Shown here: positions 36,056-47,851 of the stretch, in pieces
Layout of the letters: each line of letters starts with the position of its first letter
Numbering within the stretch: position 1 is the first letter of the stretch
NCBI RefSeq assembly: GCF_030845995.1
Contig: NZ_CP132719.1
Span: 1,984,001-2,048,000 of the forward strand
Reading direction: 5' to 3'
DNA length: 64,000 nt
Origin: Geothrix sp. 21YS21S-4
Lineage (GTDB): Bacteria; Acidobacteriota; Holophagae; Holophagales; Holophagaceae
Notes under the pieces: model-generated
What the model was told of the DNA's origin: nothing
Seen by the model: only the letters and a program-made list of their open reading frames with translations
The model's database searches: none
Translations under genes and position numbers: made by a program

Positions 36056-37135
<1,080 letters not shown>

Positions 37136-37145
37136 GGGACTCCCA

Positions 37146-37982
37146 TCAGGCGGGCTTGCGCGCGGAGACGATCAGGCTGGTGATGAAGTCCGAGGGCCGG
37201 CTGCCATCGGGGAGAAGCCCCAGCAAATGGGCGGTCATGGGGTCGTTCAGCGGCAGCATGGCTTCCACGGCTTCCCCTTTGGGCATGAAGGAGGGGTCCA
37301 CGAGACCCGCCCCGGAGACCATTCCCTTGAGATCGTCCAGGAGCGCGGCTCCGGCGATGCAGCCCACAAGGGCTTCCACGCTCTTCCGCACCGCGTCCGG
37401 GAGGGGACGCAGCAGCACCATATCGGAGATGGAGACCCGGCCGCCGGGCTTCAGCACGCGGGCGATCTCCTTCCAGACCTGGGGCTGATCCGGACTCAGG
37501 TTGAGTACGCAGTTGGAGATCACCACGTCCACGCTGGCGCTCGGCAAAGGGATGGCCTCGATCTGTCCTTGATGGAACACCACATTGTCGAGCCCCGTGC
37601 GCCGGTGGAACTCGGCCGCATGGCGGCGGGCCTTGGCGAGCATCCCGGGAGTCATGTCCACGCCGATGGCCCTGCCCCCGGGCCCCACCCTCTGAGCGGC
37701 CAGGAAGACATCCAGTCCCGCGCCGCTGCCGAGATCGAGGACGACCTCGCCCTCCTTCAGCTCCGCGAAGACGGTGGGGTTGCCGCAGGACAGGCCCAGA
37801 TTGGCGCCCTGGGGAAGGATGGCCAGTTCGACCTCCGAGTAGCCCACTCCCTGGGCGATCTCGTCGGCGCGCGCCCCTCCGCAACAGGAGGATTGAGAAC
37901 CAGAGCAGCTCTCGCCCAGGCTCGCGATGCGCCCATAGGCATCCTGGACTTTCAGGTGGATGGGGTGGAGAGGGGATTCCAT
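37146..37982 (-). CDS. arsM: Arsenite S-adenosylmethionine methyltransferase
   Basis: A 278-residue class I methyltransferase. The SAM-binding motif [20 protein letters not shown] is near residue 70, followed by [13 protein letters not shown]. Cysteines expected for ArsM are seen in [12 protein letters not shown] (~41-45), [10 protein letters not shown] (~157) and VGCIAGA (~207). It methylates arsenite to mono-, di- and trimethyl forms. The start at 37982 is set by an AGGAG box 5 nt upstream; a longer in-frame start at 38021 would lie inside arsR. It begins 14 bp after arsR. Confidence 0.92.
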
Positions 37983-37996
37983 AGGAACTCCTGGGA

Positions 37997-38326
37997 TCAG
38001 GGGCAATTCGCATCCCGGCAACCGCCGCCGCAGCAGTCCTGCCAGAGGTAGTCAGTCAGGGCCCGAAGTTGATCGAAGCGAACGGCATAACGGATGGTGG
38101 TGCCCTCCCGGGAGGCCCTGAGCAGGCCCGCTTCGGCGAGATCCGCCAGATGGTGGCTGACCGTCGACGCGGGCATTTCCACGAGCGCCTGGATCTGGCC
38201 CGCCGGGGTCCCTTCCTCGGGACCCTGCACGACGGCCCGCACGACCGCGAGACGGCCGCGGTGGGCGAGGGCTTTCAACTGGCGAATGATCGGTTCGGGG
38301 GGCAGGACCGCGGTTTCCATCTCCAT
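37997..38326 (-). CDS. arsR: ArsR-family transcriptional repressor
   Basis: A 109-residue winged-helix protein. The recognition region EMPASTVSHHLADLAEAGLL and the wing ASREGTTIRYAV are typical. The inducer-binding cysteines are not in the classical ELCVCDL position of helix 3; instead a C-terminal cluster DCCGGGCRDANCP is present, like ArsR variants that bind As(III) at the C-terminus. As first gene of the operon it probably autoregulates. The two possible ATGs at 38326 and 38320 both lack a good Shine-Dalgarno. Confidence 0.9.
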   Translation of the reverse strand: MEMETAVLPPEPIIRQLKALAHRGRLAVVRAVVQGPEEGTPAGQIQALVEMPASTVSHHLADLAEAGLLRASREGTTIRYAVRFDQLRALTDYLWQDCCGGGCRDANCP

Positions 38327-38399: not shown

Positions 38400-39764
38400 C
38401 TACTCTCCCCCGCACCCCTCGACGAACCGCCGGCTCTGGCCCTCGGCCTGGGCCTCGAATAGGCTCCCGCCGGAGACCAGCGCCAGGCCCGCGTCCCGGG
38501 CCCAGGCAGCAAAGGCGGTGTCCTCCTTGTAGATCCACTCCACCGCCCACCGCGCGGTGGAACGGGCAGCGTCCAGCAGGTCGGGAAAGGGCGCGGGATC
38601 CTCCTCCGCCATGCCCAGGGCCGTGGCCTGCACGACGCCGGCGGGCGCGAAGGCGGCCACCGCCGCGGGCAGGACCGGATCCCGGCGGGAGGCCTGGAGC
38701 GCCGGCCGGCCGGCCGCTTCCAGCACGGCGCGGGTGGTTTCGGCCACGCCGCCAGAGCCCAGCAGCAGCACCGGGCCGGGAGCCAGACGGGACAGGGACT
38801 GTCCAAAGGCCTCGGCGTCCGTGTTGGCGCCTTCCCAAGGATCGCCGGGCGCCCGCCGCCACAGCGTATTGAGGGGCCCCGCCAGACCCAGCGCCGCGGG
38901 AAGGGAGCGCTTCAGGGGCGCGGTGATGCTCAGTCCCAGGATGCCGAGGGCCTCCAGCGCCTCGGCGGCTTCCTCCGCGTCGCCGCAGAGGAGGGGCACG
39001 TAGAGGAGGTCCTTGTAGGCCCGCTGGAACCGCGGGTTGTGGAAGGCCGGTCCGCGCGAATGCAGGACCGGCTCCCCGATGACGCCGCAGAGGCCGTAGC
39101 CCGGATGGAGCCGGGCGCAGCGCCAGGCGCGGAGTGTCTCCAAAGGAAGCTGGCCCGGCGCGGCGGGCGGGCCGTCGTCCGGGGCCGCATAGGTGAACGC
39201 CCCACCCCAGGCCGCCTGCATGGCGCGCCCCGCGATGCCCTTGGGGCCCATCAGGAAGGCCGACAGCGCCACCCCGTGGTCCCGCGCCCAGGCCAGGGGC
39301 GCCCGGAGCCGCCCGTTGTCGCCCAGGCGGCCCGCGTGCCCCACCCACTTGAAGGCCTCGCCGTCCGGCAGCGCCTTCACGCGCGCCTCCAGGTCGAACA
39401 CCCCGGGGGCCACGTGGACGGAGCGCAGCAGCCGGACGTGGGTCCGCGCGGCCTGGATCTCCGCCGGCACGGGCAGGTCCCACTCCAGGTCCATCCAGGC
39501 GGGACGGCCCCGGACGGCCTTGGCGAGGCGGGCCAGGCGCTCGGATTCGTCGGCGTCGGGCCACTGGCCCCCTTCGGACATGCGGCGACACGTCACCAGA
39601 CAGCGGCGCTTCAACGCATCCACCAGAGCCTCGGGATCCGCGTCGGGGAAGAGGTCCAGCCGCAGCTCCGGCAGGGCGTCCGCCGGCAGGCGCTTGGCGC
39701 AGGCCAGGGCCGCTTCCCAGTCGGGATGGGTGAGGGTCACGAGGTGGAAAGGCAGGGCGTTCAA
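38400..39764 (-). CDS. aroDE: Fused type I 3-dehydroquinate dehydratase - shikimate dehydrogenase
   Basis: A 454-residue bifunctional shikimate-pathway protein. Residues ~1-205 are an AroD-type barrel: ELRLDLFPD, LVTCRR, LLRSVHVAPG (catalytic His) and FKWVGHAGRL (Schiff-base Lys). Residues ~215-454 are AroE: GEPVLHSRGPAFHNPRFQRA, SITAPLKRSLPAA (catalytic Lys), NTLWRR, GANTDAEAFGQSL and the Rossmann loop LLGSGGVAETTRAVLEAAG. It performs two consecutive steps, dehydroquinate to dehydroshikimate to shikimate. The same domain order occurs in plants and some bacteria. It stands alone, followed downstream by the ars promoter. Confidence 0.92.
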   Translation of the reverse strand: MNALPFHLVTLTHPDWEAALACAKRLPADALPELRLDLFPDADPEALVDALKRRCLVTCRRMSEGGQWPDADESERLARLAKAVRGRPAWMDLEWDLPVPAEIQAARTHVRLLRSVHVAPGVFDLEARVKALPDGEAFKWVGHAGRLGDNGRLRAPLAWARDHGVALSAFLMGPKGIAGRAMQAAWGGAFTYAAPDDGPPAAPGQLPLETLRAWRCARLHPGYGLCGVIGEPVLHSRGPAFHNPRFQRAYKDLLYVPLLCGDAEEAAEALEALGILGLSITAPLKRSLPAALGLAGPLNTLWRRAPGDPWEGANTDAEAFGQSLSRLAPGPVLLLGSGGVAETTRAVLEAAGRPALQASRRDPVLPAAVAAFAPAGVVQATALGMAEEDPAPFPDLLDAARSTARWAVEWIYKEDTAFAAWARDAGLALVSGGSLFEAQAEGQSRRFVEGCGGE

Positions 39765-43961: not shown

Positions 43962-45902
43962 TCAAGCGCGCAGTCCCCCAAGAATCGCCCTGGCCAAGTC
44001 GGTGAGCGACGGATCCCGCGCCCCCATGACGAGGATCAGATCGCCGGGCCGCGCTTCGGCGGCGAGGCGCTCCGCCAGCCACGCGCGGGAAGGGGCGTGC
44101 TCTGCGGCTACGCCGCGGGCGGCGAGGTCGGCCACCACATCGGCGCTGCTGATGTCCTTGGCGGCGGTGCCGCCGGCGTAGTAGACGTCGAGGAGCCATA
44201 AACGGTCCTGGGGCGCCAGCTCGGCGACGAAGGCTTCGACGAAATCCTGCCGCAGGAACTTCAAAGGGCCGAACCCATGGGGCTGGAAAACGGCCAGGAC
44301 CCGTCCGCCGCTGATGGCGGTGCGGAGGTGCGCCGCGCGGAGCGAGGCTGCCACTTTGGCGGGATTGTGGCCGAAGTCGTCCACCACCGTGACGCCGCGC
44401 CGCTCGCCCAGCACCTGGAACCGCCGGCCCACGCCCTCAAACGCAGCCAGAGGGGCCGCCAGCTTTTCCAGGGGGACGCCCAGCACGCGGCCCGCCGCCA
44501 ACGCGGCCAGAGCGTTCTCCACGTTGTGGCGACCCGGAACGGGCAGGCGGAATGGAACGCCATCCACGGTGAAGGAGGAGCCCGCCGGTTCGAGCCGGAG
44601 GTCTTCTGCGCGAATCTCCGCGTCCGCACCGAAGCCGAACAGCGTGGCTCCCGGCGCGAATTCCCGCAGGTTCGCGGCCTCGCCCACCACCGCGGCCTCG
44701 CCGACCCGGCCCCGGAAGACGCGGAACATCTCGGCCACCGCCGCCATCTCCTTGTGGTCCTTCTGGAGGTTCAGAATCACGCCCACCGCTGGGCGGTAGC
44801 GCACCACCGACCCGTCGCTCTCGTCCGCCTCGATGACCAGCAGATCGGAGCCGCCCGCCCAGGCGTTGCCCCACAGGCCGCGCCGCTGCAGCGCCACCAG
44901 GTCGCCGCCGGTGATGACGGAGGGATCTAGGCCCGCGCCGCGCAGCAGCTCGAAGACCATGGCCGTGACCGTGGACTTCCCACTGGTGCCCGTCACCGCC
45001 ACGGTGCGGTGGCGCGCCACCAGGTGCGCCAGCAGCTCGGAACGGTGCAGGACCGGCACGCCGAGGCGCCGGGCGGCGGCCACGTCAGGCGTGTCGTCCT
45101 CCACCGCCGTGGACACCACCAATCCCGCGCAATCGCCCTCCAGCCCCGAGCCGTCCTGGGGAAAGATCGCCACGCCCAGGGCCTCCAGCTTCACCCGCGC
45201 ATCCGGACGCTGGCCGCGGTCGAAGCTGCGGTCGCTGCCGCTGGCCCGCCCGCCCTTCATCGCCGCAAACTGGGCGAGGGCACTCATCCCGCTTCCCGCC
45301 ACGCCCGCGAAGTGGAGGCGCCCCAGCCCCAGACCGTCGCCGGGGAGCCCCTCCGCGATCAGCACGGGATCTCCCTCCGCCATGTGATCGAACAACTCCG
45401 CCACCGCGGCATTCGACAATCGCACGCAACCGTGGGACACCGGATGGCCCAGTTGGGATTCCTGATTCGTGCCGTGCAGGTAGATGAACCGCTCCAGGGA
45501 ATCCCGTCCCGGCCCGCGGTTCCAACCCTCCTCCAGCCCGTCCAAAGTGAGGACGCGGGTGAGGATCAGATCCTCGTCCCGGGGCTCGCCGCGCCAGACT
45601 TCGCCCGTGGCGACCCGCGCGCGGAACACGGTCCCAGCCACCGCTCCCGCGCCGATGCGGGCGTGGATGCGGTGCCAGCCCGTGGGAGTGCGGTACGAGC
45701 CCTCCTCGCAACCCAGACCGTTCAAAGCCGTGGAGACCGGAGCCTCGAACACCAAGGCTTCGCCCTCCAGAAGGCCCGCGCGCTGGCGGCCGGCGTCCAC
45801 CACGAGCACTCGCGCGCCGGCCGCCAGGATCGGCGCTCCCGGCCGATCTTGGCGGCCCAGAATGAGCGTGCGGTAGCGGGCGGCGAGGACGGGATCGATC
45901 AT
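43962..45902 (-). CDS. Fused L,D-transpeptidase (YkuD) - MurC/Mpl-type Mur ligase
   Basis: A 646-residue protein with two cell-wall domains. Residues ~25-180 form a YkuD domain with FIYLHGTNQESQLGHPVSHG then CVRLSNAAVAELFDH; the His and the SHGCVRL catalytic Cys motif are intact. From ~190 a Mur ligase follows: LHFAGVAGSGMSALAQFAAM, P-loop AVTGTSGKSTVTAMVFELLR (~300), IEADESDGSVVRY, DHKEM, the RHNVENALAALAA motif and VVDDFGHNPAKVAASLRAAH. It resembles MurC or Mpl, with TSGKS in place of the usual THGKT. There is no signal peptide, so the transpeptidase part would be cytoplasmic. The ATG overlaps the aconitase-family stop. The function of the fusion is not established. Confidence 0.85.
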   Translation of the reverse strand: MIDPVLAARYRTLILGRQDRPGAPILAAGARVLVVDAGRQRAGLLEGEALVFEAPVSTALNGLGCEEGSYRTPTGWHRIHARIGAGAVAGTVFRARVATGEVWRGEPRDEDLILTRVLTLDGLEEGWNRGPGRDSLERFIYLHGTNQESQLGHPVSHGCVRLSNAAVAELFDHMAEGDPVLIAEGLPGDGLGLGRLHFAGVAGSGMSALAQFAAMKGGRASGSDRSFDRGQRPDARVKLEALGVAIFPQDGSGLEGDCAGLVVSTAVEDDTPDVAAARRLGVPVLHRSELLAHLVARHRTVAVTGTSGKSTVTAMVFELLRGAGLDPSVITGGDLVALQRRGLWGNAWAGGSDLLVIEADESDGSVVRYRPAVGVILNLQKDHKEMAAVAEMFRVFRGRVGEAAVVGEAANLREFAPGATLFGFGADAEIRAEDLRLEPAGSSFTVDGVPFRLPVPGRHNVENALAALAAGRVLGVPLEKLAAPLAAFEGVGRRFQVLGERRGVTVVDDFGHNPAKVAASLRAAHLRTAISGGRVLAVFQPHGFGPLKFLRQDFVEAFVAELAPQDRLWLLDVYYAGGTAAKDISSADVVADLAARGVAAEHAPSRAWLAERLAAEARPGDLILVMGARDPSLTDLARAILGGLRA

Positions 45903-47851
45903 TCCCCCGCTCCCACAATGCGGCCGGCCAGCGCGCTGGCGGCGACGGTGGCGGGGCTGGCGAGCCACATCCGGCCGGGGCCGCTGCGGCCGGGGAAGTT
46001 GCGGTTGATGGCGCTGATGGTGACCTGGTCGGGATCCGTGGACACCCCGGGCCCGGCGTTGATGCAGGCGCCGCAGGCGCTGCCCAGGACCGTGGCGCCC
46101 ACGGCCTCGAAGGCCGCGATCCAACCTTCCGCCTCGGCGTGGCGGCGGACGGCTTCGCTCCCGCACTGCACGTAGAACTTCACGCCATCGGGCACCCGCC
46201 GCCCTTCGGCCGCGGCGCCCTTCACTGCCTCGAAGGCCCGGCGGAGGTCCTCCCGCTTCCCGCCCGTGCAGCTGCCGAGGTACGCGATGTGGATGGGCAC
46301 GGCCTCGTCCAAGTCCGCCAGGGCCACGCCATTCCCGGGATCGCCGGGGCGCGCCAGCATCGGCCCCAGCGCCGCGCAGTCCACGGTCAGCGTGTGGGCA
46401 TACTGCGCGTCCTCGTCGCCCGCCATCCAGGGTTCCAGCACCACGTCCACGCCCCGCCGCTCCTTGATGAAACGCACGGTTTCGGCGTCCGGCGCCACCA
46501 GGCCGGTGAAGCCGCCGATCTCCGCGGCCATGTTGGTGAGGGTGGCCCGCTCGTCGGTGTCGAGATCGCGTAGGCCCTCGCCGACGTACTCCACCACATG
46601 GCCCAGCGCCCCACCCTCGCGGATGAACGGCTGGGCCAGGAGATGCAGGGCCACGTCCTTGGCGGAGACTCCCGGGCGGAGGCGGCCCTCCAGGCGCACG
46701 CGGAGGGTGGGCGGGACTGTGACGCGCACGTCGCCCGTCACCCACGCGTTGGCGATGTCGGTGGTGCCGATCCCGAAGGCAAGACACCCCAGGGCGCCGG
46801 CGTGGGGCGTGTGGGAATCGGTGCCCACCACCACTTGGCCCGGGAGGGCGTACCGCTCCGTCATGATCGCGTGGCAGATGCCTTCGCTTCCGGAGCCATC
46901 CGCCAGTTCGCCGTGGAGGCGGATCCCGTGCTTCGCACAGAAGGCCTCCTGGGCGGGCTTCAGGCGGTCCGCCACGGCCAGGAGGCCGTGGGCGCGGTGC
47001 TCGGGCTTCATGCTGGTGGACAGGAACGTGAGGTGGTCGCGGAAGGCCAGGATGCTGTCAGGGTCGCGGAGCATCGCGCCGGGTCCCAGCGCCTTCTCCA
47101 GGAAGCTCGCTGCCATCGGGGTCACGTAGTCGTGGCTGAAGCGCCAGTCGGCTCGGACGAACAGCCCGTCGCCGGACGCCACCGCCGGAAGGCCCACGGC
47201 GCCCGCGACGGCATCCACCACCGCGCGACGGGCCAGCAGCTTCTCGGCGTAGGTCATGGGCCGACCCTCGCGCGGGGGGAGCGGGGGCGCCACTTCACCT
47301 TTCATCCGCGCGGCGTTGTAGGCGAACAGCCCGCCGCGGCGGACGATCTCGGCGGTGACGGGATCGAGGCCCTCGGTGAACTCCGATAGGGGAATGGCCT
47401 CGCCGCGGCGGATGCGCGGGACCAGGCCGAAATCCGTGCTGGTGAGGAGGCCCAGGTTCTGGCAGTTCTGGCGGTAGATGCGCTCGAAGCTCTCCGCAAT
47501 CACCAAGCGGATTCCCGCGCACCACTCCGCGTAGGGACTGGCCTCGCGGCTGCTTCCCTTTCCGCGGCGCCTGCCCGCCGCGCTGACGGCGAACCCGCCG
47601 GCACGCACCGCGCCCTCCTTCACGGGGAACCTGTCGCCGCACTTCAGGCCGAGGTACGGGAAATCGCCCAGCTTCTCGTCGAAGTGGTAGCAGATGAAAG
47701 CGGGCGTGATCTCGTCGGTGCTGATCTGGTCCCGCAACGGCGCGGCCTCAGCCAAATCCAAGTCTTCGCCCGCCAGTTGGCGGGTTACTTTCTCCGGATC
47801 CTCGGACAGGAACAGGACGCGGCCATCGAAGCGGAAGGGATCGGACAGCAT
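45899..47851 (-). CDS. Aconitase-family hydro-lyase with N-terminal swivel domain
   Basis: A 650-residue protein. Residues ~1-170 form the swivel (LeuD-like) domain (VLFLSEDPEKVTRQLAGEDL, STDEITPAFICYHFD, SREASPYAEWCAG in the place of the GSSRE/GSR-type loop, ESFERIYRQNCQNLGLL). Residues ~195-640 form the [4Fe-4S] domain with VVVGTDSHTPHAGALGCLAF, IAYLGSCTGGKREDLRRAFE and GSACGACINAGPGV, giving three cluster cysteines. The swivel-first order resembles AcnB but is shorter. The substrate could be isopropylmalate, homoaconitate, aconitate or methylcitrate-type acids. It is upstream of, and coupled to, the transpeptidase-Mur ligase fusion. Confidence 0.82.
   Translation of the reverse strand: MLSDPFRFDGRVLFLSEDPEKVTRQLAGEDLDLAEAAPLRDQISTDEITPAFICYHFDEKLGDFPYLGLKCGDRFPVKEGAVRAGGFAVSAAGRRRGKGSSREASPYAEWCAGIRLVIAESFERIYRQNCQNLGLLTSTDFGLVPRIRRGEAIPLSEFTEGLDPVTAEIVRRGGLFAYNAARMKGEVAPPLPPREGRPMTYAEKLLARRAVVDAVAGAVGLPAVASGDGLFVRADWRFSHDYVTPMAASFLEKALGPGAMLRDPDSILAFRDHLTFLSTSMKPEHRAHGLLAVADRLKPAQEAFCAKHGIRLHGELADGSGSEGICHAIMTERYALPGQVVVGTDSHTPHAGALGCLAFGIGTTDIANAWVTGDVRVTVPPTLRVRLEGRLRPGVSAKDVALHLLAQPFIREGGALGHVVEYVGEGLRDLDTDERATLTNMAAEIGGFTGLVAPDAETVRFIKERRGVDVVLEPWMAGDEDAQYAHTLTVDCAALGPMLARPGDPGNGVALADLDEAVPIHIAYLGSCTGGKREDLRRAFEAVKGAAAEGRRVPDGVKFYVQCGSEAVRRHAEAEGWIAAFEAVGATVLGSACGACINAGPGVSTDPDQVTISAINRNFPGRSGPGRMWLASPATVAASALAGRIVGAGE

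Follow-up and report, generated by a model that had tools for sequence, protein, structure and literature searches.

Peptidoglycan recycling provides the closest described counterparts of the protein reported here. ElsL is a cytoplasmic, cysteine-dependent enzyme that takes D-Ala off muro-tetrapeptides and precedes Mpl, the UDP-MurNAc:tripeptide ligase (PMC8649774; PMC8630537; PMC3060825). It hydrolyses the tetrapeptide and is not a cross-linking L,D-transpeptidase (PMC8649774). Many bacteria, including Caulobacter, are said to be without Mpl and LdcA and are assumed to degrade recycled wall peptides to amino acids (PMC13046382). Here we describe a gene of Geothrix sp. 21YS21S-4 that encodes an ElsL-like YkuD domain and a MurC-like ligase in one chain. 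It lies in a stretch of 64,000 nucleotides (NZ_CP132719.1, positions 1,984,001 to 2,048,000; hereafter the window), and the host genome is a single contig of 3,078,440 bases. Judged from its sequence and its relatives, the fusion is very probably a bifunctional cytoplasmic enzyme that trims and ligates peptides in peptidoglycan recycling and stands in, non-orthologously, for Mpl in this bacterial family. An original prediction, made from the letters of the window, had described an L,D-transpeptidase joined to a Mur-type ligase and had called for a domain search, a structure prediction, a survey across Acidobacteriota and a check for separate murC and mpl genes.

Architecture and conservation of the fusion

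The gene runs from an ATG at 45902 to a stop at 43962-43964 with no internal stop, so the single uninterrupted 646-codon frame of the original prediction was confirmed, on the minus strand, which had been left unstated. Its four motifs (SHGCVRL near residue 155, P-loop, EADESD and DDFGHNP) were recovered at residues 156-162, 305-311, 358-363 and 508-514. The Pfam search likewise found YkuD and a complete Mur ligase in one protein: Mur_ligase at 196-298 (E 6e-17), Mur_ligase_M at 303-470 (7e-15) and Mur_ligase_C at 493-629 (2e-18), all of which, like YkuD, exceed the Pfam cut-offs. The features are as follows, in window coordinates; residue numbers refer to the 646-aa product (P0001), and "GARD family" is our working label for the ligase lineage.

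43962..45902, minus: fusion gene, 646 aa plus stop, ElsL-like YkuD domain joined to MurC-like ligase
45899..45902, minus: ATGA overlap between the fusion start codon and the stop of the upstream aconitase gene (45899-47851, minus)
45357..45812, minus: YkuD domain, residues 31-182, putative ElsL-like L,D-carboxypeptidase (Pfam YkuD E 1.3e-18; ElsL model NF040925, 121 bits; alignment with ElsL-like proteins encoded on their own in the phylum and at locus L121)
45474-45476, minus: catalytic His143 in YLHGT, upstream of SHGCVRL (alignments of relatives)
45417..45437, minus: SHGCVRL motif, residues 156-162, with catalytic Ser156 and Cys159 (alignments of relatives)
45321..45356, minus: short linker, residues 183-194, whose length differs from relative to relative (alignment), with a long insertion at this point in L024
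43965..45320, minus: Mur ligase of the GARD family, residues 195-646 (Pfam, profile scores, trees, motifs, AlphaFold2; best PDB matches MurC)
44970..44990, minus: P-loop GTSGKST, residues 305-311 (motif comparison)
44814..44831, minus: EADESD, residues 358-363, Mg/ATP site (motif comparison)
44361..44381, minus: DDFGHNP, residues 508-514, with Phe510 for MurC Tyr346, His512 kept and Asn513 for His (roles from PMC3060825)
44265..44285, minus: QPHGFGP, residues 540-546, with Gly543 and Pro546 for MurC Arg377 and Arg380 (roles from PMC3060825)
44004..44027, minus: MGARDPSL, residues 626-633, signature of the GARD family (mostly GAG[DN] in MurC)

We surveyed the architecture in 247 genomes of the phylum and, more densely, in 61 genomes of the family. 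In the phylum sample, both parts occurred together in 18/18 genomes of the same genus and in three other genera of the family; outside these, no match listed covers both YkuD and ligase. In the family sample, a full-length single-frame fusion was present in at least 28 of 31 same-genus genomes, the three exceptions (G182, G282, G283) having a linker insertion or broken draft assemblies, and the fusion extended to eight genera (g1, g2, g3, g4, g143, g144, g145, g146). No fusion was found there in g5, whose genomes are ~1 Mb, in g141 or in some incomplete drafts. Both halves retained their catalytic motifs in each of the 20 relatives that we inspected, and the ten that we aligned showed no variation in them. 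An assembly artefact or chance frame was rejected, since the fusion is conserved across the family. The original prediction had named, as a possible refutation, a survey in which the two domains always came from separate genes; the fusion is conserved in the family, and separate-gene pairings also exist elsewhere.

By eye, we saw no signal-peptide-like hydrophobic stretch in the N-terminus (MIDPVLAARYRTLILG...) or in the similar N-termini of relatives. Because no leader was seen and the domain is fused to an ATP-dependent, cytoplasmic-type ligase, the protein is probably cytoplasmic, as had been predicted for both domains. These features argue against a periplasmic L,D-transpeptidase, which would be exported and act on the sacculus.

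The YkuD half resembles ElsL

The best specific family model for the YkuD half was ElsL (NF040925, 121 bits, under the model's cut-off). Its identity to stand-alone ElsL-like proteins was 42-47% end-to-end in other Acidobacteriota and 51% in Krumholzibacteriia, and it shares with them a TR[IV]LxLxGxExGxN stretch and the HGT ... SxGC[IV]R motifs. H143, S156 and C159 are invariant in the alignment of ten fusions and, together with G158, in the alignment with stand-alone ElsL-like proteins. The His of the SHGC motif is not conserved in the ElsL-like class: the Krumholzibacteriia protein has SGGC (L121:2797-2817), and other stand-alone homologues have SKGC, SEGC or SDGC. AlphaFold2 modelled this half poorly (pLDDT mostly 30-75), because only four alignment rows cover it.

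YkuD enzymes often catalyse both carboxypeptidase and transpeptidase reactions. This half could therefore be a true L,D-transpeptidase acting on cytoplasmic precursors, where it would put another amino acid in place of the terminal D-Ala either ahead of the ligation or following it. We consider this highly unlikely: the closest matches are ElsL-like, ElsL hydrolyses its substrate (PMC8649774), and the swap partner in other lineages, described below, is S66, an L,D-carboxypeptidase family. Since ElsL is both the best match and a proven cytoplasmic tetrapeptide trimmer, the YkuD half is probably an L,D-carboxypeptidase of recycling rather than a transpeptidase, and the label in the original prediction was probably wrong.

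The ligase is neither MurC nor Mpl

We compared the ligase half with MurC and Mpl. It passed neither model, scoring 304 bits for MurC (TIGR01082, cut-off 335.1) and 119 bits for Mpl (TIGR01081, cut-off 388.7). AlphaFold2 modelled it well (pLDDT mostly >90) as a MurC-like fold; the best PDB matches were MurC (1p31, TM-score 0.88 normalised by target, 2.2 A), with Mpl 3hn7 lower at 0.67. The P-loop, Mg and ATP motifs are intact. In Haemophilus influenzae MurC, the residues near the incoming amino acid are Tyr346, His348, His376, Arg377 and Arg380 (PMC3060825). The ligase keeps both histidines and has Tyr346->Phe, Arg377->Gly and Arg380->Pro. Both arginines are replaced in 21/21 fusions, and Phe stands at the Tyr346 site in 20 of them; Mpl proteins are likewise without both arginines. 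Presumably, these arginines would not be needed for a peptide in which the L-Ala carboxylate already takes part in a bond.

The Mur half could instead be a second MurC, attaching L-Ala to UDP-MurNAc, with the YkuD half as an unrelated passenger or regulator. Its overall similarity, in profile score as in PDB and fold matches, is indeed highest to MurC. We nevertheless judge this unlikely, given that the genome already carries a separate full MurC (543 bits) and that the two arginines are gone from every fusion; the gene pairings and reduced ligase sets described below also bear on it.

In a first tree, the fusions formed one clade (100/100), and MurC and Mpl formed separate clades. Across this tree and the wider one described below, the ligase fell as sister to or outside MurC and not within the Mpl clade. 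Scanning one genome per species for wider relatives, we found ligases 36-57% identical in Bacteroidota, Elusimicrobia, Fibrobacterota, Riflebacteria, Alphaproteobacteria, Lentisphaerota and Krumholzibacteriia. Nearly all of these GARD members carry GT[SA]GK[ST]T, EADESD[GK][ST], DD[FY][GA]HNP, QPH(G/A)[FY] and GARD, a combined set found in neither MurC nor Mpl. Most members tested score below the MurC cut-off (258-327 bits), and one Bacteroidales relative lies just over it (341). In the wider tree, one branch (82/100) splits all GARD members from MurC plus Mpl; the outgroup was a single very distant MurD (branch 6.9), and we rely on this split and not on the root. The closest kin of the fusions were L121 and L125 (87/86). 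By sequence comparison, the ligase is neither MurC nor Mpl but belongs to a third, unnamed lineage. Two other origins were rejected: a MurC duplicate arisen within the family, since the fusions form their own clade and are not nested in the family's MurC, and a horizontally acquired true Mpl, by scores, motif and tree. Of the Mpl-like editing of recycled peptides raised in the original prediction, the option stands, but the ligase is not Mpl itself.

The family lacks Mpl

Besides the separate MurC, the window genome encodes AmpG (432 bits, over the cut-off); profile searches found no Mpl in it, and no S66 L,D-carboxypeptidase was found there. The Mpl cut-off was passed in 47/119 Acidobacteriota, with ~30 more scoring 259-384 bits; outside the window's family, most Acidobacteriota in the sample possess Mpl or a protein clearly related to it. 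The window's family has none: its score on the Mpl model (195-211 bits) comes from its MurC. Among 32 GARD-bearing genomes, none passed the Mpl cut-off. The contrast within Acidobacteriota is the telling one, because many Bacteroidota may lack Mpl regardless. In the reduced g5 genomes (G174, G257, G264; ~1 Mb), MurC and AmpG are kept (AmpG 475-477 bits in two), and neither the fusion nor an S66 carboxypeptidase was found.

GARD ligases adjoin two classes of L,D-carboxypeptidase

In rumen Alphaproteobacteria (L142, L145), an S66 LD-carboxypeptidase gene follows the ligase gene, overlapping or almost gapless. This gene lies directly downstream in 25/30 loci of that family; one of the five other loci could not be judged at a contig end. 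A ligase without a YkuD part is encoded in g142, a sister genus from the window's family; an ATGA overlap joins its stop codon to the start codon of an S66 gene. The L121 locus of Krumholzibacteriia carries an ElsL-like gene, with the motif SGGCVRM, whose 3' end reaches ~13 bases into the ligase gene, provided that the latter starts with the TTG at 2868. As S66 adjoins the ligase in Alphaproteobacteria and g142 and an ElsL-like gene does so in L121, the GARD ligase is paired with two unrelated L,D-carboxypeptidase classes in at least three lineages. This repeated pairing would be left unexplained if the ligase were a second MurC. Elsewhere, the ligase lies downstream of dapA-asd-dapB-type genes in Elusimicrobia, and the fusion of G087 adjoins murD, mraY and a further Mur ligase.

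Chitinophagaceae differ. In L127, L128, L131, L138 and L140, the ligase gene lies directly upstream of an imidazolonepropionase-like amidohydrolase gene, among hut genes; urocanase is upstream in L131 and L138, and an arginase-family (hutG-like) gene is nearby in L131. The context looks like a histidine-utilisation operon with the ligase between hutU and hutI homologues. Given this setting, the ligase could couple a peptide to some other acceptor, or the protein could edit a different polymer or precursor of the cytoplasm in an amide-forming, perhaps hut-linked, reaction. We regard this as very improbable for the fusion, because the ligase as a whole resembles MurC in fold and in its ATP- and UDP-side motifs, the contexts in other lineages are peptidoglycan or diaminopimelate (DAP) genes, and genomes whose only Mur ligases are GARD and MurF need a source of UDP-MurNAc-tripeptide.

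Alphaproteobacteria with few Mur ligases

We then counted Mur ligases in 33 genomes of the rumen alphaproteobacterial family. MurF was over its cut-off in 32 genomes and MurC in 3. When the middle domain shared by Mur ligases served as query, 14 of the 33 (G307, G318, G320, G321, G327, G331, G333-G337, G345-G347) showed exactly two such ligases, GARD and MurF; this search found no MurC, MurD or MurE in these drafts. Random gaps would not be expected to remove the same three genes from every one of the 14. MurF requires UDP-MurNAc-tripeptide. With MurC, MurD and MurE absent, only a ligase for ready-made tripeptide can therefore supply it, and an L-Ala-adding GARD ligase would leave these 14 genomes unable to build any wall precursor.

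Another 11 genomes (G323-G325, G328-G330, G338, G340, G342-G344) carry GARD with apparent MurD, MurE and MurF, the first two assigned from score patterns, and no MurC. These genomes speak for a second MurC: in them, the MurC step of adding L-Ala may now fall to the GARD ligase. The Mpl-like label for the whole GARD family is limited accordingly. The window genome does not need such an L-Ala-adding GARD ligase, because MurC is present. A second ligase subclade (L149, L151, L154; genomes G323-G344), with 47-54% identity to L142, is found mostly alongside MurD/E/F-like ligases and without MurC. The QPHG motif is altered in L149, L151 and L154 (QPHSAF, QPHTPF), and the subclade may now serve its cells as MurC.

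Other genes in the window

The aconitase gene that overlaps the fusion (45899-47851, minus) encodes a 650-aa aconitase-family protein in which the swivel (Aconitase_C) domain precedes the catalytic domain. At 38400-39764 (minus), a type I 3-dehydroquinase is joined to a shikimate dehydrogenase N-terminal domain, an AroD-AroE type fusion. At 36056-38326 (minus), genes for a helix-turn-helix regulator, a methyltransferase and an SBF-family transporter stand in a row that looks like an arsR-arsM-acr3 arsenic operon, with gene names assigned by eye.

Discussion

We infer both activities of the fusion, the order of its steps and any hand-over between its domains. In the proposed mechanism, the ElsL-like domain would strip the terminal D-Ala from a recycled tetrapeptide through an acyl-enzyme on Cys159, followed by hydrolysis. 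The ligase, using ATP, would then couple the tripeptide to UDP-MurNAc, yielding UDP-MurNAc-tripeptide for MurF. By coupling trimming to ligation, the fusion would bar from the precursor pool any tetrapeptide still untrimmed, which is toxic and a dead end for MurF. The protein would be a natural trim-then-ligate enzyme whose physical linkage would guard against the tetrapeptide error of ldcA and elsL mutants.

Several observations weigh against this reading. The YkuD half stays below the ElsL cut-off of 270 bits; since none of the homologues from the 119 sampled acidobacterial genomes reaches it, the model is narrow, and we do not claim formal ElsL membership. The ligase is nearer to MurC than to Mpl in overall sequence, and the Mpl motif (S/T)AFFDKRSK (PMC3060825) is absent from it, its EADESDGS having no insertion. 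The absence of Mpl from Bacteroidota with GARD ligases is weak evidence, our model gives no account of the hut context in Chitinophagaceae, and the 11 alphaproteobacterial genomes suggest an L-Ala-adding role for some relatives.

For the ligase family at large, we favour, with clear reserve, a broader view. GARD ligases would form a third family of UDP-MurNAc ligases, alongside MurC and Mpl, that occurs in several phyla and is readily mistaken for MurC. They would act as a non-orthologous Mpl that recruits L,D-carboxypeptidases by adjacency (S66 or ElsL-like) or, in the window's family, by fusion, and some alphaproteobacteria that have lost MurC, MurD and MurE would live on scavenged wall tripeptide. 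If so, direct re-use of wall peptides would be commoner than thought, concealed by a MurC lookalike, and alphaproteobacteria with only a GARD ligase and MurF would build their walls entirely from scavenged peptides.

The open-access literature that we searched, subscription papers being outside its scope, held no account of a YkuD-Mur ligase fusion or of the GARD ligase family. As far as this literature and the available models show, both the fusion and the separate ligase lineage are new; L,D-carboxypeptidases and UDP-MurNAc ligases are known kinds of enzyme, and their fusion is the novelty. The fusion shares with ElsL (LdtK) of Acinetobacter baumannii (PMC8649774, PMC8630537) a leaderless YkuD domain and a catalytic Cys, but ElsL stands alone, and the ligase-fused domain here scores 121 bits against the NCBIfam cut-off of 270. 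With Mpl (PMC3060825) it shares the proposed reaction, the loss of the MurC arginines, the Phe in DDF and action after an L,D-carboxypeptidase; it differs in its separate clade, its lack of AFFDKRSK and its score (119 bits against a cut-off of 389). MurC, the UDP-MurNAc:L-alanine ligase, has the same three-domain fold and ATP and Mg motifs, whereas Tyr346, Arg377 and Arg380 are changed here, GARD replaces GAG[DN], the clade is separate and the genome has its own MurC. LdcA (peptidase S66) is alike in proposed role and adjoins the same ligase family elsewhere, but it is of an unrelated family and absent from the window genome. MurC-Ddl (NF011171) and MurE-MurF (NF008896) also place two precursor-pathway enzymes on one chain; they join two biosynthetic ligases, and neither combines a recycling carboxypeptidase with a ligase.
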